From: Clostridia bacterium
GTDB taxonomy: Bacteria > Bacillota > Clostridia > TANB77 > CAG-508
DNA length: 46,098 bases
Direction of reading: 5' to 3'
Assembly (NCBI GenBank): GCA_022794615.1
Contig: JAAWFD010000032.1
Coordinates: forward strand, 1 to 46,098
In this document: positions 317-38,852 of the stretch, piece by piece
Layout of the letters: each line of letters starts with the position of its first letter
How positions within the stretch are numbered: position 1 is the first letter of the stretch
Translations under genes and position numbers: made by a program
Notes under the pieces: generated by a model
Database searches by the model: none
What the model saw: only the letters and a program-made list of their open reading frames with translations
What the model was told of the DNA's origin: nothing

Positions 317-3300
317 TTAGACATTTTTATTAATAATCTTTTTTCTTATTAGTATAATTCCTACTATTAGTATTGATAATCCTACTATTGATATTCCTAC
401 ATATGTAATAATGTTCATATCACTACCTGTTGGTGGTGTAATTATTAATCTTACTGTATCATCATCAGATTCATTTGGACTTGCAGGATTTACAATTGGA
501 TTATAATTTCCTGGTATCGCATTTTCAAATGGTCTACTTCCTGCTATTTCAGACACTTCTATAAAATTCTCTATTGTAATTTCATCTTTACTTGCTAATA
601 ATTTACTTGCATACAATTTTACTGATTTTGCATTGTCTGCACCTATTTTTATATTTGCTAATTTGTTTTGTTCTATTGATTTTGGTTTTAATTGTGATAT
701 TACATATTTGCTTTCATTAGGTTTTATACTATTGTATACTTCTTCTGATATATATCCTAAATCTCTTAATTGATCAATTGTTGTTATATCCCAATCTTGA
801 TTATTCTTCTCTTTATCAAATACCATTTCTGAATCCATATAATCTGCTAAGTTATTAATTGTTATTGTCTTTATCTGTCCTTCTTTTACTCCATAGTAAT
901 AATATTCTTGACTATCATAATCTACTTCACTAGTATTCTTTACTGTTATTGTATATTCTAGTTCTAATGTTGCACCATGTAATAAATTCGTTTCAATCTC
1001 TACTGGTACTATTCCATCTAATCCTGAACGTACAAATTGTAGTTTAGAATTTATATCTGATGGATTTCCCTGTACTAGAACTTCTTGGTTTGAAGTCTTT
1101 ATTGTCATAAATGTTATGTCTTTTGATGTTTCTATACTATTTTTTGGTTTTTCTATAATTCCGAAATCCATGTTTGTATAATTATTTATAAATTCCTGAT
1201 GTACTAATTTTCCTTCATCATCATACCATGCTGATATTTGTGTATCTTTGGATGTATGTTCTACTCCTATATTTAACTTTGCTGTAAATGCTTCTGCAGT
1301 TGTTTTTGCATATACATTTTTAATTGTTGCATTATTTACTACATTTGGCATTCCTGCATTTCTTTGTGCCATATCGTCTATAGCATCTGAATATCTGCTA
1401 TTTTCTTGTATTACATACCACTTATCACTGCTATATGTTTTACCATTATATTCTAGTGTTTGGTTTGCTATTGCATTTTTAATTATTCCCGATGTTATTA
1501 TTGTAGATTTATATTCATTTACATCAGTTATTTCTCTTACTAGATTCCCTGATTTATCTAATATTTGGTTTCCTTTTTCATAGATATATTGAATCTTGTA
1601 TTCTCCTGGTAAAATTCCAACATATTTTTTAGTGTTTTCATCATAATAACCAAATTTATAGTTTCCATGTTCATCTGTTTTAGCTATTACTTGTTCTCCA
1701 TTTGAATATGTTGCTACTTTATAGTTTCCATCTACATCTCTTTGAATATTTCCATTTTCATCAAGTTGTACTAATCTTACTGTTACACCTTTTACTACAT
1801 TTTCATTTTCATCAAGAATACCATTTCCTAATCTTTCTTGTCCTTGTCCTACCATTTTGTCAGCATCAATATCTTCAAATACTGTTCCTGATAATGCCCT
1901 TTCTGTTGTTGCTTGTAGCTTAAATCCTGGTGCTACTTCTGTATCATCTTCCATTTTGCAATTATTGACTGGGTCTGTTGCACATAATATTGAATTAATA
2001 TCTACTTGTGCGTTATTTGGGCTTGAATTTACATCTATTGCTGCATATAATTCTCCTACTGCACATGTATCTCCTGGTGCTCTATATGTATTTAATCCAT
2101 AACTACTTACCCCATATCTTGTTTGATAACTTGTTATTTCTGTTATATTTCTTAATGGCTCTTTTTCCCCATTTAATAAGCTATATACAAAATCTTCGCT
2201 TACTTCATATCTTATATATGCTACGTCTCTTGTTTCTTGTGGTTTTAAAGTTACATTTATATTAATATCACATCTATTTAATACTGTTCCTATTTCTGTA
2301 GGTGATTCTGAATTTATACCTTGTAGACTTAATATTTTGTCTCGAGTATCTGCCCATCCTACTATTCTGTTATAGTTTGCATCATAATAGTTTGCTATAC
2401 TTCCAATATCCATCTGTAATGTTGTACTTGCATTTTGGACATTCACTTTGTAAACTACTTCTACACTTAACCTTGCTTTACCATCTATTGCTGCTTGTAT
2501 ATCTGATGCATATACAGCTCTTTCATATATATCTAAATATTTGTTTTGATATCTTACACCTATATTTATTCCTGAATTATTAGTATAATGTTTTTTTCTT
2601 GTTGCATAATCATATACATATTGATAATTATTTACTGTTACTATTACTGCTTCTATATCATTTGATAATTCCATATTTGGTAATTCTCTTGTTCTTATAC
2701 CAAAATTGATATCAGTATATTCAATATTTTTTATTATTTTTTCTACTTCTACACCTTGTATTACTTCAACTTCTTTTCTTTCACTTGATTCAGAATTCAT
2801 TCCTTTATATGCAGACATATTATCAGTTCTTGCTGTTATTAAATTGTTGAAATTGTTTGAGTTGACTTCACTAGTTATTGGGTTATATTGTGAGCTTAGC
2901 TGTCTTCTTTCATTCACATTTTCCGTTCCTTTTGAACCAGATTTTAATGTTTCTATTTTTTGTACAGCTGCATAGTCATATCCATTATATCTAATTCTTA
3001 CTGTATAATTGTCTACTTGGTCATAATCTAAGCCATCAAATGAATATGCTCCATTGGATGTAGTAGTTTCTTTTATTACATTTCCACTTCCATCTAATAA
3101 TTGTACCGTTATGCCACTTATTTTATTTTCATTACTATCATATATGTTGTTAAACTCATTTTCCTTTCCTGATGGTACATCTTGCCATACAAATCCTGAT
3201 ATTTTAGCACTACTCTCTCCTGATGATTGTGGTGGTGGAGGTGGTGGAGGCGGTGTAAGTGTTGTCCACTCTACTAATTTACTATCCTGTCCTCCTTCAG

Positions 3301-4339
3301 ATGCAAAGTATATTAATTGTTGCCCACTTGCTGCTGGATTTTTTAATAATATTATTCTTGCTTTGAATTCTGCATTTGTTACTGTTACTTTTACATTTAT
3401 ATTTTCAGATGTTATGTATTCATTTATTACTGCATAGAATTCTACATTGTTTGGTACATTGCCTGTTCCTATTTCAAATGTTCCATCTGCTTTCTTTCTT
3501 GCCCAACCTGCCGATTTTCCTTCTACTGTTACTACTGTTGCTGCTCCACTATAAGTCATCTTTAATGGTCCTATAAATGTGCTTGAGCCTTGATAAGTTA
3601 CACTTGGTCTATAATCTTCTGAATCAACTTTGTTTGCACTTGCTGCTCCTGTTGTTCCCGATGATGTTGCTATTGCTGTTGCTATATTTTTTTCTGTTTT
3701 ATTATAATTTGATGCTCCAAATGTATTTGCTGTTGAATTTCTATAGAAATCACTATCTAGTATTCCTGAACTGTCTATTAATTTTTTAAATCCCCAGTTA
3801 TGCCATACATTATATATTGTTGATTTTAATTGTCCTTCGTTTGTGCTTATTCCTGATTGTGTTCCATTTGCTTTATATATTAAGTATGCCATTTGTGTAG
3901 CAATTCTATCAGTATTGTCATTTATCTGTACATGTGTATTTCCTTTTCCATATATGTCTATTTTTCCATATCCTGATTTGTTTATATCTATTACATTTAC
4001 AATTTCTAAAGTTGCTCCTGCAATTGTACTTTGTCTGTGGTATAAACATGTTGCTGTATTATATCTTATATCTGCTACATTATTGTATCCTGCTGCTACT
4101 ATATTTTTTATATTAAATATATTTTCTACTGATTCGTTTACAAATCCTTGCTTATCATGTTCTATTGCATATGCAAGTGACCCTGTTGTATATTTGTTGT
4201 TTCTAACAGGTATATTATTAATAAATGTTGCATTTACATCTATTTGAGTCAAGAAGAATGCTATTGATATAATACTTACTATTATTGCTGATATTGTTAA
4301 TGAGATTTTTAATTTACTAGTTTTTAATTTATTATTCAT
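317..4339 (-). CDS. Large secreted cell-surface protein with SdrD-B/Cna-B-like repeats, polyproline linker, possible N-terminal thioester-like domain and C-terminal PPTG + TM + RKK sorting signal
   Basis: ORF of 1340 aa; N-terminal hydrophobic signal; repeats such as SGFVWQDVPSGKEN and SGTVFEDIDADKMVGQGQERLGNGILDENENVVKGVTVRL; C-terminus LIITPPTGSDMNIITYVGISIVGLSILIVGIILIRKK. Confidence 0.85.
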   Translation of the reverse strand: MNNKLKTSKLKISLTISAIIVSIISIAFFLTQIDVNATFINNIPVRNNKYTTGSLAYAIEHDKQGFVNESVENIFNIKNIVAAGYNNVADIRYNTATCLYHRQSTIAGATLEIVNVIDINKSGYGKIDIYGKGNTHVQINDNTDRIATQMAYLIYKANGTQSGISTNEGQLKSTIYNVWHNWGFKKLIDSSGILDSDFYRNSTANTFGASNYNKTEKNIATAIATSSGTTGAASANKVDSEDYRPSVTYQGSSTFIGPLKMTYSGAATVVTVEGKSAGWARKKADGTFEIGTGNVPNNVEFYAVINEYITSENINVKVTVTNAEFKARIILLKNPAASGQQLIYFASEGGQDSKLVEWTTLTPPPPPPPPQSSGESSAKISGFVWQDVPSGKENEFNNIYDSNENKISGITVQLLDGSGNVIKETTTSNGAYSFDGLDYDQVDNYTVRIRYNGYDYAAVQKIETLKSGSKGTENVNERRQLSSQYNPITSEVNSNNFNNLITARTDNMSAYKGMNSESSERKEVEVIQGVEVEKIIKNIEYTDINFGIRTRELPNMELSNDIEAVIVTVNNYQYVYDYATRKKHYTNNSGINIGVRYQNKYLDIYERAVYASDIQAAIDGKARLSVEVVYKVNVQNASTTLQMDIGSIANYYDANYNRIVGWADTRDKILSLQGINSESPTEIGTVLNRCDININVTLKPQETRDVAYIRYEVSEDFVYSLLNGEKEPLRNITEITSYQTRYGVSSYGLNTYRAPGDTCAVGELYAAIDVNSSPNNAQVDINSILCATDPVNNCKMEDDTEVAPGFKLQATTERALSGTVFEDIDADKMVGQGQERLGNGILDENENVVKGVTVRLVQLDENGNIQRDVDGNYKVATYSNGEQVIAKTDEHGNYKFGYYDENTKKYVGILPGEYKIQYIYEKGNQILDKSGNLVREITDVNEYKSTIITSGIIKNAIANQTLEYNGKTYSSDKWYVIQENSRYSDAIDDMAQRNAGMPNVVNNATIKNVYAKTTAEAFTAKLNIGVEHTSKDTQISAWYDDEGKLVHQEFINNYTNMDFGIIEKPKNSIETSKDITFMTIKTSNQEVLVQGNPSDINSKLQFVRSGLDGIVPVEIETNLLHGATLELEYTITVKNTSEVDYDSQEYYYYGVKEGQIKTITINNLADYMDSEMVFDKEKNNQDWDITTIDQLRDLGYISEEVYNSIKPNESKYVISQLKPKSIEQNKLANIKIGADNAKSVKLYASKLLASKDEITIENFIEVSEIAGSRPFENAIPGNYNPIVNPASPNESDDDTVRLIITPPTGSDMNIITYVGISIVGLSILIVGIILIRKKIINKNV

Positions 4340-4360: not shown

Positions 4361-7300
4361 TTATTTTATAACCTTTTTCTTGATTATATATATTCCTGTT
4401 AATATTATTATTACACTATTGAATACTACTAATATGTATGCAAATATTCCACCTGTTGCTGGGTTTATTAACATCTCTGCTGTACTTTCATTATTACTTA
4501 AATTTATATCTTTGTATTCTTTGCTATTTGTTGTTTTTGTTATTTTTGCTATATTTGTTATATCAAAGCTTTCTTCTGAATTATCTTTTACTAATGTTAA
4601 TGTTATATCTTTGCTTTCTCCTGGATTTATTACAATACTAGCTAAGCTATTATTGTATAAGTTTCCATCACTTGTAGAATACCATTGTGCATTTAATTCT
4701 GAATTAAATCTCATGTTGTCTGGTAAATAATCTATTATTTCTGTTGCATATCCTGGTAACTCTCCTACATTACTTATTCTTATTGTATATTCTACTAATA
4801 CTGTTGAACCTGCAATTTGTTTACTTGGGATTTCTTCTCTTACTAGTTTTTGGTCTTCATATTTTGTAGTCCTTGTTTCTTGTGAAGTTTTTACTATTAC
4901 TTTTGTGATGTATTTGTCTAATTGTAAGTCAAATTTCTTTAACTCTACTAATTGTAAGTCTATATCAGTTCTATTTTCTTTTAGGTTTATACTGTTTGTT
5001 ATTGCAACTTTTTCTTCACTTTCTGCATTACTTATTATATAGTCTTTTACATTTGAAGCTCCTGATAGTTCATATATATTTGTATCGTATTTAAATATTA
5101 TGTTATAGTTACCTTCTGATAATCCTGAAATTTTGTATTGCCCTTCATTATTTGTTTTTACTTCTATTTCTTTTCCTTCGCTATCTTTTACAAAACTATT
5201 TTGGTTATTTAAGTCTATTACTTTTACAGTAATATTACTTATTCCTTCATTATTGTCTTTTACTCCATTTTTATTTCTGTCTATCCATGCTGTTCCTGAT
5301 ATATTATAAGTTCCTTCAGGATTTCCTTGTCCTTCATCTATGTATTCACTCTCTATTTGTATATTTGCAACATTAGATTGAATCTTTTCTCCTCCATTTA
5401 ATGTTACTGTTACTGTGTTTTGTATTTGTTTACTTGGTATTTTAATTGCACTTACTTTTGTTTCTATTATGACTTTTATTGTCTCTCCTTTTTCTATTTC
5501 TGTCATAATGCTTATTATTCCGTTTTGACAAGTTCCTGTTTGGTCTTCATTTTGCCCTTTCTGTACAAGTGTTACTTTTTGTATTTCTAATCCTGATGGT
5601 AAATAATCTTCTATTGAAATTACAGAACTTATATTTCCTGTATTTCTTACTTCTGCTGTTATTATTACATTATCTCCATCTTTTACCTTTTGATTTTCTG
5701 ATATATTTAGAGTTTGTTTTACAGATACTTGTGTTTTGCCTTGTAATACTTTTACCTCTACTTTATTTGAAACATTATCATCAATTTTTATATATACACC
5801 TTCTGCACTTTCTAACTTGTCTATTGGCATATCTTTCGTATATATTGATGATTGTAATAATACTTGTTTACCTGCTTTTAAGTTTGTTATATTTAATTCT
5901 ACATAATTTTCGTTTGAGTTATATCTTATGTTGTTTATTAAATTGTCAATTTCCTCGTATATATCTGCTTGCACTTCTTCATCATAATATAAGCTGTATG
6001 CTTTTATTTCTGATAAATCTTTATTCCATTCTAATCCTTCTGATAAATATATTCTTACTTTTTTGTTTATTATATCTTTATCTGTTAGATTTTTTATTGT
6101 TGTTGATACTGGCATTATTGAGTCTGTATGTATTTCTACTTCTTCATTATATGCTAATTTGTTTGTTATTTTTATTTCTGCATCTTTTATTATATTTGTT
6201 ATTGTTTGTATTGTACTTTCTGCCATATTTGTTGATGATATTGTTATATTTGTTTTCGAACTATTATTTTCTGACATTTTTCTTGTTACTGCTCTATATA
6301 TTAGTTCTCTTGATTCATTTGGCTGTAAGTTCTGTATTGTAAATATTTTTGTATCTGTGTCTAATTCTCCATATGTATGTTCTATAAATTCTCCATCTTC
6401 TATCATAGGATTTGTTACTATTACTTCTTTTAGATCATACATCTTTCCATTTTCTTGTAGTGCTCTTACATTTAAACTTGTTACTGTTTCATCAGATATA
6501 TTTGTTATTCTTACTGTGTACTTTATTATTTGTTCATTATAAATTTCATCATTGTTATTTAGTACAGCCCCATCTCCTAATTGTGCTAATGTTTCTACCA
6601 TAAATTTGCCATCTATAATTTCTATATTTCCTATTGCCTCTTTTTCATCTGTTGCTAGTTTTACTTTGTTGTTTATACTATATTCTGTTCCTGAATATGT
6701 ATAGCTTGATACTGCTTCTATTTCTATCTTTTCATTGTAATATAAATTTGCTGGTACTTCGATTAATCCCTCTATTGTTTTTATTTCTCCTGGCTCTAGT
6801 ACTATGCTGTTTTCTGTCTTGCTCATTAATTGCGTTTCTTCTTGCTTATAGCTTGTTTGTTTTGCTACTATTGTATTATCTACTGTAATTGGCACTCCAT
6901 AGTTATTTATTATTGTATATTTTACTGGTACTTGTACTGCTCTTTTATTTAATATTGCTAACTCTCCTACTACTTCTATTGCAGTATCACTATATTTTTC
7001 TAAAACAGCTCCTTGACCATTGTAATTTTCTGTTTTTAGATTTGTTACTACTTTTTCATTTGATGATACAATGTTTATTCCTTTTGATTGTGCTTGATAT
7101 GTTGTTCCTTTGTTTGTATATGACATTTTTATTGTGTCTACCTTATTTGCCATCATTCTTTTTACTTCTACATTTGCATTTAATATTATTTGTGTATTTA
7201 TATCACTTGCTATATGATTTGACTGTTTTCCATTAAGTTCAATATATATTTCATTATTTTCAGTAATTGATACATGTTTAACAGTAAAGTTTCCACCTTC

Positions 7301-8650
7301 CGCTGATATTTTTATGTTTTTCTCTATTTCTTTTACCGTTACTCCTTCTGGCATTTTAATTGTAAATGTTGGGTTTTCAAATAACTGGTCTTTATCCATT
7401 GTATTTGTATTTAATGTTATTACTATTCCTATGTTTTGTGTCCCATTTATTGATGATATTGTTTCTATATCCTTTAGTCTGATTGTTGCATGTGCTGTTG
7501 GTTCTATTAAGTCTATCTCTGATTTTTCTTCTATACCATTTATCATTACTTTTTCTTCTATTTTTTCAAAGTTTGATATATTGTCATTATTTTTATCTGT
7601 TACTAATACTTTTTTGTTTTCTATTTTCAGTCCATATGATACCGTTTTTATATCAGATATACTCTGTATTGTAATTGCTACTGTTTTTTCTGGATATGAT
7701 ACTAATATGTATGTTGAGCCTTCTGCTTCTACCAATGTATCCTGATTTATTGTATTTTCTGTTGTTCTTCCTTGTTCGTCTACTGATGTTATTTTTAATT
7801 CATATCTTCCATATTCATCTGCAAACATTGATGATAAATAATTTTTGCTAATTCTACTAGTTTTATAATATGTTTTTGCTACTAACTTACTTCCATCTTT
7901 ATTTATTATTTGAGGAATTAATGTATCTAGTTTTACATTGTTGGATTGTGTTTTATTTAAGTATGATGTTTCTATTTCTATATTTTGTGTATACTCTGTT
8001 TGTTTTGTTCCTTCTGTAGCATACATGCTTCCTTTATATATTTCTGTTGGAACTTCTACTTTTGCACTTATAACACTTCCCATCTGAGATATTTTTGTTT
8101 TTGCTGTATCTTCTATTTGGTATTCTTTGCTGTCCACTTTTGCTTTTACTTTTGTTGCCCATGTTATATCTGCTTCTTCCCCATTGTCCCATACATCAGC
8201 AGAATATAAATAAACTATTTTGTGTCTTGTTTCCCCTTCTATTGTGTTTGGTGTTATTGTTAATATTCCACTTCCATAGTTTGATTTATAACCTGTTATT
8301 AAATTTACTATTTTTGTAGTTGATGGTAATTTTCCATTTATTTTTGGAACATCAATTTCAATTTTTCCATCTGTTATTTTTTGTTCTGCATCTTTTTGTA
8401 AATTGATATTTAATTCCACTTGTAGTAATACCACATCTTCTACTTTTATATATTTTTGTACTCTATTAGATATCTTAGTTGTAATTCCTTCTACGGGTAC
8501 TTGTGATGTCACATTCTCATTTACTAATATAGCATATGTTTCTTTGGCAATTAAAATAAAGTTAGCTATTGTCAATGTCATAACTAACATCATGGCTATC
8601 ATCTTGTTAATAATGCTTGTCTTTTGTTGTTTCTCTGTGTTTACTAGCAT
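4361..8650 (-). CDS. Large secreted DUF11/SdrD-B-like surface protein with NPATG-type sorting signal
   Basis: ORF of 1429 aa; signal peptide; conserved SGTAWIDRNKNGVKDNNEGISNITVKV domain; DUF11-like segment; C-terminus NPATGGIFAYILVVFNSVIIILTGIYIIKKK; 21 bp upstream of the next ORF. Confidence 0.85.
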   Translation of the reverse strand: MLVNTEKQQKTSIINKMIAMMLVMTLTIANFILIAKETYAILVNENVTSQVPVEGITTKISNRVQKYIKVEDVVLLQVELNINLQKDAEQKITDGKIEIDVPKINGKLPSTTKIVNLITGYKSNYGSGILTITPNTIEGETRHKIVYLYSADVWDNGEEADITWATKVKAKVDSKEYQIEDTAKTKISQMGSVISAKVEVPTEIYKGSMYATEGTKQTEYTQNIEIETSYLNKTQSNNVKLDTLIPQIINKDGSKLVAKTYYKTSRISKNYLSSMFADEYGRYELKITSVDEQGRTTENTINQDTLVEAEGSTYILVSYPEKTVAITIQSISDIKTVSYGLKIENKKVLVTDKNNDNISNFEKIEEKVMINGIEEKSEIDLIEPTAHATIRLKDIETISSINGTQNIGIVITLNTNTMDKDQLFENPTFTIKMPEGVTVKEIEKNIKISAEGGNFTVKHVSITENNEIYIELNGKQSNHIASDINTQIILNANVEVKRMMANKVDTIKMSYTNKGTTYQAQSKGINIVSSNEKVVTNLKTENYNGQGAVLEKYSDTAIEVVGELAILNKRAVQVPVKYTIINNYGVPITVDNTIVAKQTSYKQEETQLMSKTENSIVLEPGEIKTIEGLIEVPANLYYNEKIEIEAVSSYTYSGTEYSINNKVKLATDEKEAIGNIEIIDGKFMVETLAQLGDGAVLNNNDEIYNEQIIKYTVRITNISDETVTSLNVRALQENGKMYDLKEVIVTNPMIEDGEFIEHTYGELDTDTKIFTIQNLQPNESRELIYRAVTRKMSENNSSKTNITISSTNMAESTIQTITNIIKDAEIKITNKLAYNEEVEIHTDSIMPVSTTIKNLTDKDIINKKVRIYLSEGLEWNKDLSEIKAYSLYYDEEVQADIYEEIDNLINNIRYNSNENYVELNITNLKAGKQVLLQSSIYTKDMPIDKLESAEGVYIKIDDNVSNKVEVKVLQGKTQVSVKQTLNISENQKVKDGDNVIITAEVRNTGNISSVISIEDYLPSGLEIQKVTLVQKGQNEDQTGTCQNGIISIMTEIEKGETIKVIIETKVSAIKIPSKQIQNTVTVTLNGGEKIQSNVANIQIESEYIDEGQGNPEGTYNISGTAWIDRNKNGVKDNNEGISNITVKVIDLNNQNSFVKDSEGKEIEVKTNNEGQYKISGLSEGNYNIIFKYDTNIYELSGASNVKDYIISNAESEEKVAITNSINLKENRTDIDLQLVELKKFDLQLDKYITKVIVKTSQETRTTKYEDQKLVREEIPSKQIAGSTVLVEYTIRISNVGELPGYATEIIDYLPDNMRFNSELNAQWYSTSDGNLYNNSLASIVINPGESKDITLTLVKDNSEESFDITNIAKITKTTNSKEYKDINLSNNESTAEMLINPATGGIFAYILVVFNSVIIILTGIYIIKKKVIK

Positions 8651-8749: not shown

Positions 8750-8776
8750 GTGTCATGGGGACGTTCTTTTTGACAC
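8750..8776 (+). repeat. 27-bp REP-like palindromic repeat, copy 1
   Basis: GTGTCATGGGGACGTTCTTTTTGACAC. Confidence 0.85.
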
Positions 8777-9013: not shown

Positions 9014-9040
9014 GTGTCAAAAAGGACGTCCCCATGACAC
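9014..9040 (-). repeat. 27-bp REP-like palindromic repeat, copy 2, inverted relative to copy 1
   Basis: Minus strand GTGTCATGGGGACGTCCTTTTTGACAC; one mismatch to copy 1. Confidence 0.85.
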
Positions 9041-12000
9041 TCTTTTCTTAATTAAGATTACCCCTACAATTATTAGTAATAATGATCCAATTCCTGTAAA
9101 TATATATACTAAGTGATTATTTGCTCCTGTTGGTGGCATAATTACTAATTTTACACTGTCTTCATCTTTTTCTACTGCTCTTTGTGGCATTAAGTTTCCT
9201 GGTGTTGCATCTAGTCCAGTTGTTCTTGCTATTGCATATATTTCTAAGATTTCTGCATCATTAGTAAATACTAACTCATCTTTTGCTCCTAATAGTTTAC
9301 TTGCATTGACTTTGACTGTTTTACTTGTTGCTCTATTTGGATTGCTACTTGTTTCTAATCCTTTATTGAATTCTGTTGTTACAAATATATTGTGTTTTTC
9401 TTCTATTAAAGCATCTCTTGTTTCTTTTGATATTCTTCCTTCATCATATAGTTGCCCAGCTGTCTTTATTTCCCAACCTTCTTCTAGTCCTTCATTCATT
9501 TCGTTTATGTCATATACTAATTCACCATCTAAATAGTCTCCTACAAGTTTTACATATTTGTCAATTTTTTCTGCTCCTGTGCTATCTCCAAAGTAATAAT
9601 ATCTTCTTCCTGCTATTGCTTTTGTGTCAGTTTCTGAAAGATTGGTGAATTTATAGTCTACTTCTGAATTATTTATTAGTTTTATTTCATATTGCATATT
9701 TAATGCTGCACCTTGTATTAAGTCAGCATCCATATCTACATATATATTGTCTTCTATTGCTCTTGTGTATGGTAAATTTTGTTCATATGGATTTCCATTT
9801 ACTAACATTTGCCCATTTGCTAATTGTATTGACATGTTTGTTAAATTTTTGTCAAGTACTAATTCTACTATTGGTCTTTGTATTATTCCAAAGTCAATGT
9901 TCTTGTTTTCTGAATAGAAATTAGGGTCTGGAATAGGGTCTCCATTTTCATCTACTACTATATTTCCATTAATATCTCTTAAATATACATTTGATACTGA
10001 ATTGATATTTTCAAACTCTACACCTACAATGAATGATGCTGTTATTGCTTTCATATCATGTGTGTCTGCTTCTATTGCATCGCGAATTGTACTATAATTT
10101 AATATTTCACCTTCTTGTTCTTGTTTCATTCTTTCTATGATTTCATCTACTGCATCTGAATATCTAATTATATTACCATCTGTGTATTTTTCTTGTATTG
10201 TATTCCAGCTAAAGTTTCCTCTTCCTTCTACTGTTGCTGTCGCTGGTTGAATATTTAATGCTTTTCTTATTTCAGTTGATGATATTATTGTTGATTTGTA
10301 GTCTCTTGTATCTATCTCTTTATAGTTCCCAGTTCCTTTTTCTTTAATTTTTGTTCCTTGCCCATAAGTATATCTTACAGCATATCCATCTGGTATAATT
10401 CCTACAAATTGATAATTTCCATTATCATCTGTATATGTAACAGCTTCAACTAATTGTTTTTCTATTTTTCCATTTTCTCCTGATATTGTTTGATATAGTG
10501 TTGCTATTGTTGGATTTCCTGAATTATCCTTTTTGATTGTTCCTTTTAAGTTTGGATTTGCTTTTACAGCTTCATCATTATCATCATATACTTCTAATAA
10601 CTCTACTTTTGCATTTACTACAACGTTTTCTGTATTTTCTTCATAAATTCCATTTCCTAATCTTTCATTTTTGTTTTTGCTTTCTTGTGTTTGTGAGTCT
10701 TCGAATACTGTTCCTGAAATTATATTGTTTTTATCTGCTTGTAATACTAATGATGGTGCCATATCTGTATCATCTTCAAATGTCGTTTTTATAAATCTGT
10801 TATTTTCATCTAATACAACTTCTGCATTTCCTGGTGCTGAGTTTTCATCTACACTCGCATAACGTTCTCTTAATGATGTATATGTTGAGAATGAAGATAT
10901 TTCTGTCATGTTATCTAATGTTGAATCTCCATTTAATAATCCTAATACTGTTTCATCATTTACTTTATATCTTATATAGATTTCTGACGTTTTTCCTCCC
11001 TGTACATATTCGTCTGCTAGATTTATTTGAAGTACATTAAGTCTTCCGTTATCATATGTCTGGCTTCCTATATTCCAACTATTTATTGGTGTTTTTGTTT
11101 CTCCTGACATGTAATATACCTCTTGTGGTATATATTTTCTGTCATAATAGTTGTTTATTTGATTAAATGTAGCTGTAAGTTGTTCGCTTGACTGATTTTT
11201 CATTGTGATTTTATATACAACATCTACTTCTATCTTATTGCTGTTTCTATTTTCTGCAAAATATGTTACTGATGATTGATATATTGTTCTTGTGTATCTG
11301 TTTAAGTATTTATCTCCGAACTTTACTCCTATATTAAATGCTCCATCATTTTTTAAGTATGCATTTCTTGTTGCATAATGATATGTATGTGTATATCCCT
11401 TTAGTCCTACATGTATATCTTCTATATCGCTTGATACTGCTAAATCTATGTGTTCTCTTTCATATACTCCTAGATTTATATTTCTTATTTCTTCATCATG
11501 AGCATTATATGTTGTTCTTAAATTGTAATTATTGTTAGCAGTTGTTGCACTTATATGATATTTGTTTACTGCATAATAGTCGTTTAGTTTTATTCCTTTA
11601 CTGCTATCTGCATATTCATTCCCTTCTGTGTATGTTATTTGTGATAGATAATCTGATGGTTGTGTATAATTAACTTCTGCTGTTCTATTTCCGTTAGCAT
11701 CTAACATATATCCTTGTGTTTCTCCATTACTTCCTTTTGTTGTATTTCCTACTACTGTTGCATATTTATTGTTAAATGTTGTTCTGTTATTTCCTTCAAT
11801 TGATTTTGAACCATTCTCTTTTGCTATGTTTGGTATTACATTTGTATATTTCATTCCGTTGTATATAAATTCTATATAGTAATTGTTAATGTCTCTTAAT
11901 AATATGTTATCTTCTGAGTATTTGTCTCCTGTTTTGCTTCCAAATAAGTATGCACCATTAGAATCTGTCCATCCCTCATAACTCTTTCCTGTTTTTGTAT

Positions 12001-15000
12001 TGTGTAATATAACTTTTACTCCTTCTACTAACTTGTCATTATTATCTTGATAGTTTATTGTTGTTTCTTGGCATAAGTCATTTCTTAAGTTGTCTTTTCC
12101 GTTTGGTCTATCTTCCCATACATATCCTGATATTCTTACATATTTTTGTTCATTTGCTACTGTTATATTTGTTGTGCCTTTGTCTGGTATGTTAATTGGC
12201 ATTTGTAGTCCTTTGTTTGTTGGATTTACTAGTGTTCCTCCTGTTACTTTCCATATTATATAGTCTGGATCTAGCTCATATCCATAATATGGATTAGATA
12301 TCTCTCTTACTATATATTGTGCTGTGTTATTAGTTTCTACATTGTTGTCCAATGACTGTAATTCCAAATTGTTTACTGATATAATTCCATTTGTATCAGT
12401 TATAAATGTAGTTGCTTCTGCTATATTTGTTGTATAGTCTTGCTTTGTTACTGTCGATGATCCTGTTACTTCTGTTTGATACCCTGATTTTCCTTGTATT
12501 TGTACTTTAACGTATTTATCTCCTGTGCTATTTAATATTAAGAATTTTACATTACTTAATTTTATTGCTGAATTTTCACTATTTACTTTTTCTATATTTA
12601 TATTTCCTACTAATTTTTTGTTTTTAGCTTTATATTTAATTAATGCATTTTCAATTTCAACTTGCCTTACACTATTTATGTTCTTATCATTATGATAACC
12701 ATGATATAATTCATCATGTGGAATTTCTTTTTCTACAAAAGTATAGTTTCCTGCTCTTAATCCTTCTACATATATGTATCCTTGCTCATCTGTTATGAAT
12801 ATTGTTGCATCTGCCTCATCTACTACATATGTTATTGATAGGTCTTCTTTATTTTGTTTTACATATCTTCCTAATGTATCATTTCTTATAACGAATTTTA
12901 TATTTGGTAATGGTATTGTTGTATCATCAGCATCTACTTTTTCTATTCTTAATGTTTTTGGTAATTCAGTTGTCCATTCTACTGTAGATGTTGCATTTGT
13001 AGAACCATTTTCTTGGTAAATTAATACATCTGGCTTAGTTGCCTTCATAGATTGTACTGGTTTGTTTTGACACCATTTACAATCACTTACCACAAATGTA
13101 TAATGTTTAATTATAGCTTGTGTAATTGTAGATGTATAACTTCCTGACACTGATGCTGAAATTTTTACTGATGTTAAAGCATATATATTTGAAGGTACAT
13201 TTATATATAGTTCTTTATCTGGACTTAATTGTGTTGGGTTTCCATATTTATCAACAATTTCATAAGAAGATATCTCTGATACTTCCCCTGTAATTAAATT
13301 AGTAATTCCTTGAACTGATATTATATAATTTGGATTATCTTTATTTGTTGAACAACTTATTGAAAATGGTCCATATTGCTTTTTATCTCCAAGTAATTTA
13401 TATTCTATCACATCTGTATTTTTATTCAGACTAATATGTACATCAGGTTGTGTGTTTGATCTTGTCTCCGCCAAAATTTCTCTTTTTTCTACATCTTCTT
13501 TATACATATGTGTTCCTTTACACATAGAATCTCCTGGAGCTGTACATAAAAATTCTCCAGCATTAAATTCTCCAGTAACAGGGTCTCTACTTATAGCAAT
13601 ATATTCATTTCCATCTTCATCCAAATATGAATCTGCTCCATCAGAAATTATTGGAATTATTGGTACTATTGCTACTATCATTACTATAAATATTAATAAT
13701 TTTATACCTTTATTTTTTAGTACTCCTTTAGCTGTAAGTAATATTATAATAAGCATTATAGCTATTATTAAAATAGTTAATAATATTGTTCCTATATATT
13801 CTCCAACTGTACCTGTTTGTATTGAAACAATGACTTCTACTTTATCACTATTATTTTCAATGTTCTTATCCGCAATATGTTTTGCATTATCACTTATCCC
13901 TATTTTTGCAATGTTTGTATATGTTTGTATTGTTTCATCTAATGTTTTAGTTAATACTAATGTTGTTTCAACACTTTCCCCTGGTTTAATTACTTGTACT
14001 GATAGATTTGTATTACTTAAATTGTTTCCTACTGTCTTATACCAATTAGAATTCAACTCTGAATTAAATTCTAGACCTGATGGCATTTCATCTATCAATT
14101 CATTAACTGTTCCTGCTAGCTCTCCAATATTTGTTATAACTATTTTATATTCTATTATAAGATTTGAACCAGATATTTGTTTTTCAGGTATCTCTACTTT
14201 TGCAATCTTTTTATTATAATAATCATATTCTTTTGTTCCTGCTTTATTTTGTACTGTTATTTTTTGTATATATTTATCAACTTTTAAATCAAATATTTTG
14301 TTTTTTATAAGTCCTATATCTATGTTTGATTTATTTGATGTTAAATCAATTATATCTGTTAGTCCTATAAATACAGTTTCTCCATTAAGAGTTGCTTCTT
14401 TTTTCATTGCATCCGAATTCATTGATGCACTTATTCCTGGTTTCTGATATGTTGTTATTTCATAGTCATTATTGTTGTATTTGAAAACCACATAGTATTT
14501 TCCTTCATTGATATTTTCAAATGAATATTGTCCATAAGTATTTGTAAATCTTGTTATTATGTTTCCTTTTGCATCTTGTACATATTTATTATTTGTTATA
14601 TCTAATAACATTACTTCTATTCCTGATAATTTTTGTTCTGTTTCTTCTCTTTGTCCATTTTCATTTTCATCTATCCAAGCTATTCCTGATATTGTATATT
14701 TCTTTGAGTCTGGATTGTCAGGGTCTATTGGTTTATCTGGCTCTTCTGGATCTACTGGTGGTTTTTGGTCATCTGCATCTCCTGTATCTACAACAAGTTT
14801 TTTAGCTTTTATAGTATTTTCTATTATATTTGATTGTTTTGTTTGTATATATTCTCCTGTAACTATTGAATAATTTGATATATCTGCATCGTCATATACT
14901 GTTCTTGCTTTTGCTTTTATTTTTATTATTGATTTTTCTTTAAGTGGTATATATAAATCTAAACTTACTCTTGCATCATCTGTATTATCTCTTCTATTAA

Positions 15001-17836
15001 TTTTTTCTATTTCAATTGAATCTAATTCTATGTTTTGATTTACAAAGCTATATTTTTGTTCTTCATCTTCTTCATTAATTGATATTACACTTGTATTATA
15101 TGTTATACTTGTTACTTCTAATTCATTTGGTATATAATCTCTGAAATTAACTTTAGTATAGTTATCCCATTCTGGTATTATCTTTCCAACATTTTCAACT
15201 TCAAATATATAGGTAATCTCATCATCTTTATTTAATGTCTCGCCTTCTTCAGCTGATGTTTGAGTAACTTTTATTGCCTCTATGTATCCTGATGCTCTAT
15301 TTTCATTTGATTTATATATATTACCATCTTGAGTAGACACTGTTGCTGCTATATTGATATTCCAAGAATAATTCTCATTTTCTTCTATATTTACAACATC
15401 AGCTACTATATATATCCCTACTTGATTTTCTTCAAGGTGGAATCCTATTCCTCCTTCTTCGTTCTTATCTAAATTGCTTAAATTTTCAAGCTTATTTATG
15501 TTGTTAAACTTAACAATAACACTATTATTGTTTGTTACTGTTTCATATTCACCCTCTTCTTTACCCCATATTGTTATATCTTTAACTTTTAGATTTTCTG
15601 TTAGTGGTATTGTTACAGTAACATTGTTTTGCTCTACATTAGATATATTTGATACTTGAGCAAAATACACTCTTTCATTTCTTTTATTTCTTCCTACAAG
15701 TCCTTTTAGCTCTACTGCTATACTAGCCTGATTTATCGTGTTTGATAATGTATATGCAGAAATATCATTTTCTCCTATATATACTTTTACTTCTGAGTTT
15801 ATTTCTTTTTCTGTTTCTGTATCTAATAAGTTATTTATCTTTACTTCATAATAATAAGTTTCTGTTTGTCCTGATTGTAAAGTTCCAACATATATTTCTT
15901 TTTGCTTTATTGTATCATTTGGAACAAAATCATAGTTATCATCATAGAATCCACCTACTACCAAGTCCACATATGTCATTCCATCTGGTATTTGTCCTAC
16001 TATTTTAATATCGTCAATATTACTATTTGTTGTATTTGTTAGTGTAACTTCATATTTTAAAATTTGTTCTTCATATATAGTTTCATTATTAGCTAGTATT
16101 TTGTCTCCAGCAATTACTTTTGTATCTATTTTTAGCCCATTAGAATTTACCACTGTACCTTCAACATTTTGTTTAGATGATGTTTCTAGCATAACTTGAT
16201 TTTTTTCTACTAATTTAATTGGTTGCTCATATATACTATCATTACATATCATCTTAATTGATGAATCTTTTGATACTATGTTTTGTTTTAACATTACTGT
16301 TGCTGAAATTAATATGTTTGTACCCTTTGATATATCTTCTGATTGTAAATATTGTGTTTGTTTACCTGAAAGTATTATTCTTATAACTTGTTTTCCTTCA
16401 GCATTTGTTTCTACTACTGCATCTTGTTTAGTTAATTCAGTATCATGCAATAGTCGTACATCATTTAATATTATTTTTTCTATTTCTTCTGGTAATTCTA
16501 TTAATACTGTTGGATTTTCGAATAATTTATTTGATTGATTGTTTCTTTCTAATGTTGCTGTAATTGTTAGTTGGTTTTGTGCATTATTTGTTAATTGTTG
16601 TTTACTAATGCTCATGCTTACTGTCTCTTTAGCTTCTTGAATAGCTATATCATTTTCTAAATTTTCTTCATATATTGTGTATGTCTCTTCTGATATCTGT
16701 TCTTGTGCTCCTCCATCTAATGGATTTACTTGATCTGTTTTTGTTCCTAATATATTTAGCTTATTTTTTACTGTATCTATGTTTTGTACTAAAGTTGATT
16801 TTATTACTTTTGTAGTATTAAATTCTATTATTCCTTCTTTTACTATATTGCTTATTTGTAATTTGATGTTCTCTACTGGCTCTGTAAATGTATATACATA
16901 GTTTCCATCTTTGTCAGTTTCCACTTCGTTGTTTATTAAATCTATTATTTCATTACTTTCATTTAATATTAATATTTCTCCTGTTGCTCCTAATATATTT
17001 TCTATTTTGCTTTTTTCTATTATTATATTTTTATATACTAAGTTATTGTTATTCAATATATCTGTTTCTTGGAAACTAAATGCATTATTTGATGTTAGTA
17101 TAAATGATTCAGCTATATTTTTGTTGCTTATCATTATTTTAGCTTTTTCTTTGTACTCTGTGTTATACGATGTACCATTTTGTATGTTAGAATTTATATA
17201 TCCATTGTATAGAGTTTCTGTTTCATAATCTACTGAAATGACTGTTCCAATATTTTCAGTTACCATTCCTTGTGCTGTTGTTTCTCCAGTTAATGTTACA
17301 CTTTCTCCTGATTTCGCTATCTTTACTGTTTGTGCAACTGATACTTTAACATTTAACAATCTTTCCTGATTTTCATTTGTATAACAGTGTGCTCCATAGA
17401 ATAATATTATAGTATATTCTTGTTTATCCTCGTATTTTAATTTCTCTTCATACTTCTCTTGAATTGTTATTATTCCATTTTCATAACTCGATTCTTTTCC
17501 TATTACTTCAACTCTTGTTGGTACTTTTCCTAAAATCTCTGGGCATTCAATAGATACTGTTGTTCCTTCTACATAAACTTCTTCGTTTTCATGTTTTTGT
17601 AATCCAACTCCTACTTTTAGTTGAACTATTGTCTCTGTATCTAGCTCATTTGCATAATTAATATACTTTTCTAACACTACTTCTTGTGTAGTCTGTATAC
17701 CTTCTTCTGCACCTAAAATCATTCCTGAAACCACTTCTACTGCTTCGCTTATTAATACCATTACTGAGCTATTTAGCAATAATACGATTAGAATTAAAAT
17801 ACTACAAATTTTCTTCATCTCTTCCATTCCTTTCAA
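9017..17836 (-). CDS. Giant (2939 aa) surface protein; apparent fusion of a paralog of the 8650-4361 protein with a paralog of the 4339-317 protein
   Basis: N-half resembles ORF 4361-8650 and C-half resembles ORF 317-4339; two internal hydrophobic segments at the junction; listed start at 17836 is TTG, and ATG at 17818 (MKKICSILILIV) with upstream AAAGGA is the likelier start. Confidence 0.85.
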   Translation of the reverse strand: MKGMEEMKKICSILILIVLLLNSSVMVLISEAVEVVSGMILGAEEGIQTTQEVVLEKYINYANELDTETIVQLKVGVGLQKHENEEVYVEGTTVSIECPEILGKVPTRVEVIGKESSYENGIITIQEKYEEKLKYEDKQEYTIILFYGAHCYTNENQERLLNVKVSVAQTVKIAKSGESVTLTGETTAQGMVTENIGTVISVDYETETLYNGYINSNIQNGTSYNTEYKEKAKIMISNKNIAESFILTSNNAFSFQETDILNNNNLVYKNIIIEKSKIENILGATGEILILNESNEIIDLINNEVETDKDGNYVYTFTEPVENIKLQISNIVKEGIIEFNTTKVIKSTLVQNIDTVKNKLNILGTKTDQVNPLDGGAQEQISEETYTIYEENLENDIAIQEAKETVSMSISKQQLTNNAQNQLTITATLERNNQSNKLFENPTVLIELPEEIEKIILNDVRLLHDTELTKQDAVVETNAEGKQVIRIILSGKQTQYLQSEDISKGTNILISATVMLKQNIVSKDSSIKMICNDSIYEQPIKLVEKNQVMLETSSKQNVEGTVVNSNGLKIDTKVIAGDKILANNETIYEEQILKYEVTLTNTTNSNIDDIKIVGQIPDGMTYVDLVVGGFYDDNYDFVPNDTIKQKEIYVGTLQSGQTETYYYEVKINNLLDTETEKEINSEVKVYIGENDISAYTLSNTINQASIAVELKGLVGRNKRNERVYFAQVSNISNVEQNNVTVTIPLTENLKVKDITIWGKEEGEYETVTNNNSVIVKFNNINKLENLSNLDKNEEGGIGFHLEENQVGIYIVADVVNIEENENYSWNINIAATVSTQDGNIYKSNENRASGYIEAIKVTQTSAEEGETLNKDDEITYIFEVENVGKIIPEWDNYTKVNFRDYIPNELEVTSITYNTSVISINEEDEEQKYSFVNQNIELDSIEIEKINRRDNTDDARVSLDLYIPLKEKSIIKIKAKARTVYDDADISNYSIVTGEYIQTKQSNIIENTIKAKKLVVDTGDADDQKPPVDPEEPDKPIDPDNPDSKKYTISGIAWIDENENGQREETEQKLSGIEVMLLDITNNKYVQDAKGNIITRFTNTYGQYSFENINEGKYYVVFKYNNNDYEITTYQKPGISASMNSDAMKKEATLNGETVFIGLTDIIDLTSNKSNIDIGLIKNKIFDLKVDKYIQKITVQNKAGTKEYDYYNKKIAKVEIPEKQISGSNLIIEYKIVITNIGELAGTVNELIDEMPSGLEFNSELNSNWYKTVGNNLSNTNLSVQVIKPGESVETTLVLTKTLDETIQTYTNIAKIGISDNAKHIADKNIENNSDKVEVIVSIQTGTVGEYIGTILLTILIIAIMLIIILLTAKGVLKNKGIKLLIFIVMIVAIVPIIPIISDGADSYLDEDGNEYIAISRDPVTGEFNAGEFLCTAPGDSMCKGTHMYKEDVEKREILAETRSNTQPDVHISLNKNTDVIEYKLLGDKKQYGPFSISCSTNKDNPNYIISVQGITNLITGEVSEISSYEIVDKYGNPTQLSPDKELYINVPSNIYALTSVKISASVSGSYTSTITQAIIKHYTFVVSDCKWCQNKPVQSMKATKPDVLIYQENGSTNATSTVEWTTELPKTLRIEKVDADDTTIPLPNIKFVIRNDTLGRYVKQNKEDLSITYVVDEADATIFITDEQGYIYVEGLRAGNYTFVEKEIPHDELYHGYHNDKNINSVRQVEIENALIKYKAKNKKLVGNINIEKVNSENSAIKLSNVKFLILNSTGDKYVKVQIQGKSGYQTEVTGSSTVTKQDYTTNIAEATTFITDTNGIISVNNLELQSLDNNVETNNTAQYIVREISNPYYGYELDPDYIIWKVTGGTLVNPTNKGLQMPINIPDKGTTNITVANEQKYVRISGYVWEDRPNGKDNLRNDLCQETTINYQDNNDKLVEGVKVILHNTKTGKSYEGWTDSNGAYLFGSKTGDKYSEDNILLRDINNYYIEFIYNGMKYTNVIPNIAKENGSKSIEGNNRTTFNNKYATVVGNTTKGSNGETQGYMLDANGNRTAEVNYTQPSDYLSQITYTEGNEYADSSKGIKLNDYYAVNKYHISATTANNNYNLRTTYNAHDEEIRNINLGVYEREHIDLAVSSDIEDIHVGLKGYTHTYHYATRNAYLKNDGAFNIGVKFGDKYLNRYTRTIYQSSVTYFAENRNSNKIEVDVVYKITMKNQSSEQLTATFNQINNYYDRKYIPQEVYYMSGETKTPINSWNIGSQTYDNGRLNVLQINLADEYVQGGKTSEIYIRYKVNDETVLGLLNGDSTLDNMTEISSFSTYTSLRERYASVDENSAPGNAEVVLDENNRFIKTTFEDDTDMAPSLVLQADKNNIISGTVFEDSQTQESKNKNERLGNGIYEENTENVVVNAKVELLEVYDDNDEAVKANPNLKGTIKKDNSGNPTIATLYQTISGENGKIEKQLVEAVTYTDDNGNYQFVGIIPDGYAVRYTYGQGTKIKEKGTGNYKEIDTRDYKSTIISSTEIRKALNIQPATATVEGRGNFSWNTIQEKYTDGNIIRYSDAVDEIIERMKQEQEGEILNYSTIRDAIEADTHDMKAITASFIVGVEFENINSVSNVYLRDINGNIVVDENGDPIPDPNFYSENKNIDFGIIQRPIVELVLDKNLTNMSIQLANGQMLVNGNPYEQNLPYTRAIEDNIYVDMDADLIQGAALNMQYEIKLINNSEVDYKFTNLSETDTKAIAGRRYYYFGDSTGAEKIDKYVKLVGDYLDGELVYDINEMNEGLEEGWEIKTAGQLYDEGRISKETRDALIEEKHNIFVTTEFNKGLETSSNPNRATSKTVKVNASKLLGAKDELVFTNDAEILEIYAIARTTGLDATPGNLMPQRAVEKDEDSVKLVIMPPTGANNHLVYIFTGIGSLLLIIVGVILIKKRVSWGRPF

Positions 17837-38825: not shown

Positions 38826-38852
38826 GTGTCAAAAAGAACGTCCCCATGACAC
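38826..38852 (-). repeat. 27-bp REP-like palindromic repeat, copy 3 (solo)
   Basis: Minus strand GTGTCATGGGGACGTTCTTTTTGACAC, identical to copy 1. Confidence 0.85.

Follow-up and report, generated by a model that had tools for sequence, protein, structure and literature searches.

The analyzed window is a stretch of 46,098 nucleotides from a Clostridia bacterium (contig JAAWFD010000032.1 of assembly GCA_022794615.1; GTDB lineage Bacteria; Bacillota; Clostridia; TANB77; CAG-508), which carries three neighboring genes for large surface proteins on its minus strand: P0001, the open reading frame (ORF) of 2939 codons under study, P0002 (ORF 4361-8650) and P0003 (ORF 317-4339). All coordinates are those of the window. 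The frame of P0001 runs uninterrupted over its 2939 codons (9017-17836), and the gene joins an N-type to a C-type surface protein, while P0002 and P0003 encode the two types separately, in the same N-then-C order as in P0001. The members of this split pair are spaced by 21 nt, with a stop (TAATAG), a ribosome-binding site (RBS) and an ATG between them. The N-C unit is thus present twice at this locus, once fused and once split (Table 1). An extended promoter-like site (TTGACA-17-TAAAAT, 8715-8687) lies upstream of the split pair.

Table 1. Features of the fused gene P0001 and its split neighbors. TM, transmembrane segment.
Feature	Residues	Position	Strand	Basis or remark
P0003, split C-type paralogue	1340 aa	317..4339	-	own signal peptide; ends TPPTG-TM
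P0002, split N-type paralogue	1429 aa	4361..8650	-	ends NPATG-TM-KKKVIK-TAA
P0001, fused gene, N-type + C-type surface protein	2939 aa, counted from TTG	9017..17836	-	
N-terminal signal peptide, MKKICSILILIVLLLNSSVMVLISEA	7-33	17738..17818	-	hydrophobicity; small-x-A after core in 31/42 fused proteins
N-half stalk, DUF11-type repeats		13826..17737	-	Pfam; homology to P0002
SdrD_B domain (N-half)	1049-1152			Pfam
DUF11 domain	1227-1335			Pfam
Internal sorting-signal-like motif SIQTG	1338-1342	13811..13825	-	family consensus IIS[VI]xTG
TM1, stop-transfer segment of ancestral N-type protein	1343-1369	13730..13810	-	hydropathy
Positive loop KGVLKNKGIK, predicted cytosolic		13700..13729	-	charge +4
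TM2, signal-peptide-like segment of ancestral C-type protein	1380-1397	13646..13699	-	
Candidate non-canonical signal peptidase site SDG|ADS	1398-1403	13628..13645	-	putative; small-x-G only
C-half head, thioester-domain-like	1403-1600	13037..13630	-	candidate bond Cys1431-Gln1595
SpaA prealbumin-like domain	1628-1719	12680..12955	-	Pfam
C-half stalk, P0003-homologous	1900-2933	9038..12139	-	BLASTP 30.6%, E 7.5e-99
C-terminal sorting motif MPPTG	2900-2904	9125..9139	-	sequence; relatives: [IV]xPPTG and variants
C-terminal sorting-signal membrane segment	2908-2929	9050..9115	-	followed by KKR

The original prediction had aligned by eye the N-half of P0001 with P0002 and its C-half with P0003, and both correspondences were borne out by pairwise alignment (BLASTP). 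The C-half matched P0003 over 1088 columns with 30.6% identity (P0001 residues 1900-2933; E 7.5e-99), and the last ~309 residues of the N-half matched P0002 with 39.8% identity (E 7.7e-53). The rest of the N-half was also covered when a profile of 35 fused N-halves was compared with P0002 by hhalign (probability 99.7, 840 columns, 22% identity). No cross matches of the N-half with P0003 or of the C-half with P0002 were reported in the BLASTP comparison of halves and neighbors, and the C-half had no counterpart in P0003 over its first ~500 residues.

Concerning the ends of P0001, an ATG at 17818 (residue 7) is more likely the start than the upstream TTG, because AAAGGA lies 9 nt upstream of this ATG and the signal peptide begins there. 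The protein read from that ATG opens with MKKICSILILIVLLL, a hydrophobic N-terminus of the kind found in sortase-anchored surface proteins, and the C-terminus (MPPTG, membrane segment, KKR) is LPXTG-like, in a PPTG form rather than as a strict LPXTG. Scans of P0001 against Pfam and NCBIfam returned generic stalk domains only, and a PDB sequence search with P0001 gave no match. One signal peptidase I and one sortase (PF04203 match; closest solved structure 4d70) were detected in the genome of the window. This single sortase was found in 0.99 Mb of a genome that is 87% complete, and other genomes of the genus have 4-11. A 27-bp palindrome similar to repetitive extragenic palindromic (REP) elements, GTGTCATGGGGACGTNCTTTTTGACAC, occurs at 8750-8776 (+), 9014-9040 (-) and 38826-38852 (-), its core being present in 21 copies in the genome vs. 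0 for a reversed control. An inverted pair of these palindromes flanks the gap between P0001 and P0002, and one copy codes for the last residues of P0001 (VSWGRPF).

Sequences matching P0001 were found in 192 of the 195 genomes of the window's genus. Forty regions were fetched and their ORFs called independently; for split pairs, the frame lengths given by the search extended past stop codons. A signal peptide, an N-type half, two adjacent hydrophobic segments, a C-type half and a C-terminal TM were present in dozens of ORFs (2300-3700 aa), so that the architecture that the original prediction had proposed to look for in related genomes occurs across many species, and split versions occur as well. 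The orthologue in G095 (CAMUDX010000006.1) is 91% identical to P0001 and fused likewise, and JAAWJM010000036.1 has the same in-frame junction. A contig scan with a single sequence returned seven loci, two of which were distant Saprospiraceae matches (24-34%). The window genome is a draft (41 contigs, 87% complete), from which it could be supposed that an assembly or sequencing error removed a stop codon; the in-frame junction recurs in other assemblies and in a whole clade, however, and with the relatives refuting it this explanation has a negligible probability.

For a less biased count of fusions, a junction profile (A1) was used, and a stop-free TM1-TM2 junction was present in 15 of 59 sampled genomes of the window's genus (our own count of A1 matches). 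In profile searches over the family, the N-type gene was detected in 141 of 145 genomes and 38 of 39 genera, while stop-free fusions were confined to the window's genus among the matches listed. An apparent fused gene in another genus (G277, L148) was rejected, given that 11.5 kb around it, with the flanks, are 100% identical to a contig of the window's genus (G078, L068) and that its own contig is probably mis-binned. Split N-type genes nearly always end in IIS[VI]xTG-TM-KK-stop, with the stop in or beside the RBS, and the split C-type gene begins a few bases (within tens) past this stop, with its own signal peptide. The split pair is the usual state in the family.

A phylogenetic tree was built from 102 N-type end domains, with columns stopping at the TG and the junction columns excluded. 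All 55 fused genes fell on one side of a single branch (ultrafast bootstrap 98; Shimodaira-Hasegawa-like approximate likelihood ratio test, SH-aLRT, 90), and a single change between the fused and split states was obtained in 98% of 200 bootstrap trees. Because the family's other genera have the two genes split, the simplest view is that the fused state is derived. P0002 fell outside the fused clade and P0001 is therefore no fresh fusion of its neighbors: of the head-to-tail fusion of next-door proteins that had been proposed, the two protein types stand, but these two particular genes are not its parents. The tree points to one inferred origin for the fusion, an old event common to many species of the window's genus.

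The junction of P0001 has the succession described in the original prediction (SIQTG, a hydrophobic segment, AKGVLKNKGIK and a second hydrophobic segment). Its conservation was evaluated in 55 fused rows; these are kin, and the p values serve as a guide only. The T-G of the internal motif was invariant in all fused genes (55/55) and in 46 of 47 split N-type genes, the preceding IIS[VI] was conserved in fused genes to a degree equal to or above that of split genes, and position -1 changed from Lys/Arg in split to Ser/Gly in fused genes. The loop between TM1 and TM2 has 7-19 residues and a net charge of +3 to +7 in 55/55 fused genes; following the positive-inside rule, a positive loop suits a cytosolic turn. 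A small-x-Ala motif was found after TM2 in 42 of 55 sequences vs. 10 of 55 (18%) after TM1 (Fisher p 1.1e-9; background 27%), and is thus as common after TM2 as in genuine signal peptides (31/42 N-termini of fused proteins and 33/41 split C-type genes; 74-80%). A positive n-region, a hydrophobic core and small-x-Ala occur together at this internal position in 42/55 members of the clade, the copy in P0001 having small-x-Gly only. AlphaFold models of the junction (four sequences) were poor (predicted local distance difference test, pLDDT, 46) and showed only two helices at the expected places. These features had been regarded as a relic sorting signal run into a relic signal peptide; the conservation of the xTG, the positive loop and the signal-peptide-like TM2 across the clade indicates instead that the junction signals are maintained.

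The DNA of the loop in P0001 begins with AAAGGAG, which stands in codons where split relatives have their RBS and resembles a leftover of that site. Two proteins could then arise by translation, through a ribosome restart at this leftover. Yet P0001 has no ATG, GTG or TTG between AAAGGAG and TM2, AAAGGAG is altered in G095, and an in-frame start with a Shine-Dalgarno core was kept in just 3 of the 55 fused genes, and therefore synthesis of the C-half relies on the fused frame being translated. A restart is very improbable on these grounds.

The C-half begins with a head of ~200 residues that precedes the SpaA and further stalk domains. One Cys and one Gln of this head were invariant in 16/16 sequences (P0001 and 15 relatives), with a spacing of 136-177 residues, and P0001 has in Cys1431 and Gln1595 the bond-forming residues of a class II thioester domain, a correspondence of residues only. 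The top Foldseek matches of the head model (pLDDT 77) were the class II thioester proteins 6fwy and 6fwv (E 3e-4, probability 1.00), though with a low template modeling score (TM-score, ~0.2). The profile of the head places the invariant Gln on chain residue 235 of 6fwv, which by our count from the construct limits is Gln266, the thioester residue of BaTIE (PMC6194298). Pfam gave no thioester-domain match for the head, and the pattern xQxA[IVLF][WYF], related to TQxx[hydrophobic]W, was without match in the C-heads of P0001 and its fused relatives. The heads of other fused relatives differ. The head of P0001 looks thioester-like and is regarded as a candidate thioester domain. As an adhesin tip, if such is its role, it would be expected at a free end, which favors a cut after TM2. 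Residues 30-380 of P0003 constitute a unique N-terminal domain with the motif CLYHRQ...TQMAYLIY and a proline run, for which no homologue was present in the fetched loci; to take CLYHRQ...TQMAYLIY as a thioester motif would be a guess.

Taken with a fair degree of confidence, P0001 is a conserved, genus-specific surface polyprotein that is probably cut after TM2 to yield two anchored proteins. The sequences themselves show the gene structure, the homologies, the single fused clade with its split relatives beyond it, the conserved motifs and the charge of the loop; the topology, both cuts and the adhesin function of the fused product we infer as follows. The ancestral unit would have had two genes, the first for an N-type wall protein ending in xTG-TM-Lys and the second, at most tens of bases further on, for a C-type protein that carried a signal peptide of its own. 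The stop between the two genes would have been lost once, in an ancestor inside the window's genus. The fused chain would be exported by Sec with the N-half first, halt at TM1, turn in the cytosol at the short Lys-rich loop and restart translocation at TM2, in the role of an internal signal peptide. Cleavage by signal peptidase behind TM2 would release the C-half, its thioester-adhesin-like tip first, and sortase would anchor it via the PPTG signal. TM1 would hold the N-half in place or, should sortase accept the Pro-less S[VI]xTG, the N-half would be transferred to the wall at this motif. The complete version of this scheme, a cell-wall polyprotein hairpin processed by signal peptidase at the internal signal peptide and by sortase at both the inner and the terminal motif, giving two wall proteins at 1:1, one of them a thioester adhesin, and kept by selection since the single fusion, is put forward tentatively.

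The original prediction had placed both halves outside the cell on a two-TM hairpin, if the chain is translated whole; this topology is supported as a prediction, with a +4 loop that would be cytosolic. It had also supposed that a sortase cut at SIQTG could give two wall proteins. Processing is plausible, but that cut would free the N-half only and the C-half would remain on TM2, so that a signal peptidase cut after TM2 is needed too, and the site of P0001 is weak (S-x-G). As a sorting signal, SIQTG agrees with the family motif S[VI]xTG and is not strictly LPXTG-like, for want of Pro.

Several observations weigh against a polyprotein cut in this way. The internal motif is Pro-less, with V or I at position 2 in 55/55 fused genes, split family members share this Pro-less motif, and its recognition by sortase is uncertain. 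The window's own subclade (4/4 rows) has no Ala at -1 after TM2, with S-x-G at best; the fused rows were collected by similarity to P0001; and cleavage of the fused product is itself a prediction from sequence. The main rival is an uncut protein, with both halves outside and tethered by the intact two-TM hairpin and sortase acting at the C-terminal PPTG only. The subclade of the window without an A-x-A type site, the absence of Pro from the internal motif and a hairpin that is geometrically possible with its +4 loop speak for it, while the cleavage-site-like motif after TM2 in most of the clade, the invariant T-G of the internal motif, and the fact that an uncut TM2 would hold the thioester-like tip at the membrane speak for cleavage. 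We regard the uncut form as rather unlikely for the clade, and as having a higher probability for P0001 itself.

Observations on the C-type side also weigh against the proposed polyprotein. In the last ~590 residues, fused and split C-types were intermixed on the tree, with 13 changes, as expected if C modules were exchanged between array copies, and the single origin therefore holds for the N-side and the junction only. Moreover, the fused genes of relatives L035, L135, L137-L141, L143, L144 and L154 are frameshifted, often in the C-half, which may represent decay, phase variation or assembly indel errors. Together with a repetitive, recombining array, these frameshifts could indicate decaying or chance fusions without a selected function. 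Both halves, however, had low ratios of nonsynonymous to synonymous substitution (dN/dS 0.17 in the N-half and 0.16 in the C-half, window vs. G095), and the frame through the junction was kept in 55 divergent genes of one clade, making decay or chance fusion quite improbable.

The polyprotein proposed here shares with sortase-anchored Gram-positive surface proteins (SdrD_B, SpaA, DUF11) the signal peptide, a long repeat stalk, a C-terminal xxPTG-TM-Lys and a sortase in the genome. It differs from them in having two complete such proteins per chain, where a signal-peptide-like segment comes directly after the inner xTG-TM-Lys, and in its non-LPXTG motifs. To our knowledge, cleavage of polyproteins at internal signal peptides is typical of viruses and rare in bacteria. 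FbcH of Bradyrhizobium japonicum, a cytochrome b/c1 polyprotein, is cleaved at such a peptide. As in FbcH, one gene derives from two neighboring genes, with export and an internal-signal cut that for P0001 are predicted only; FbcH, in contrast, comprises respiratory proteins of a Gram-negative bacterium, and P0001 two wall proteins. With TIE proteins (BaTIE, 6fwv; EfmTIE86, 6fwy; PMC6194298), P0001 has in common a head in which Cys and Gln are invariant, prealbumin or Cna-like domains after this head, and a signal for sortase, but its head gave no Pfam thioester match, the Cys-Gln spacing is 136-177 vs. 195 in BaTIE and the TM-score of its model is low (0.2), and the bond remains a candidate. 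A literature search, which did not cover the whole literature, found no bacterial surface polyprotein with an internal signal peptide and no fused sortase substrate. The sortase-type adhesin parts are known; we could not find a description of two in one chain with an inner stop-transfer/signal-peptide pair kept since one fusion.

The case has one inferred origin, with split outgroups family-wide, a fused clade of many species, and cutting signals that are still as frequent as in true signal peptides. It makes testable whether Sec and signal peptidase can cope with a chain in which a stop-transfer/restart hairpin separates two large wall proteins, and whether it matters that two surface proteins are made in a fixed 1:1 ratio. 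For gene callers and annotators, inner TM pairs of the P0001 type are not to be taken for errors.

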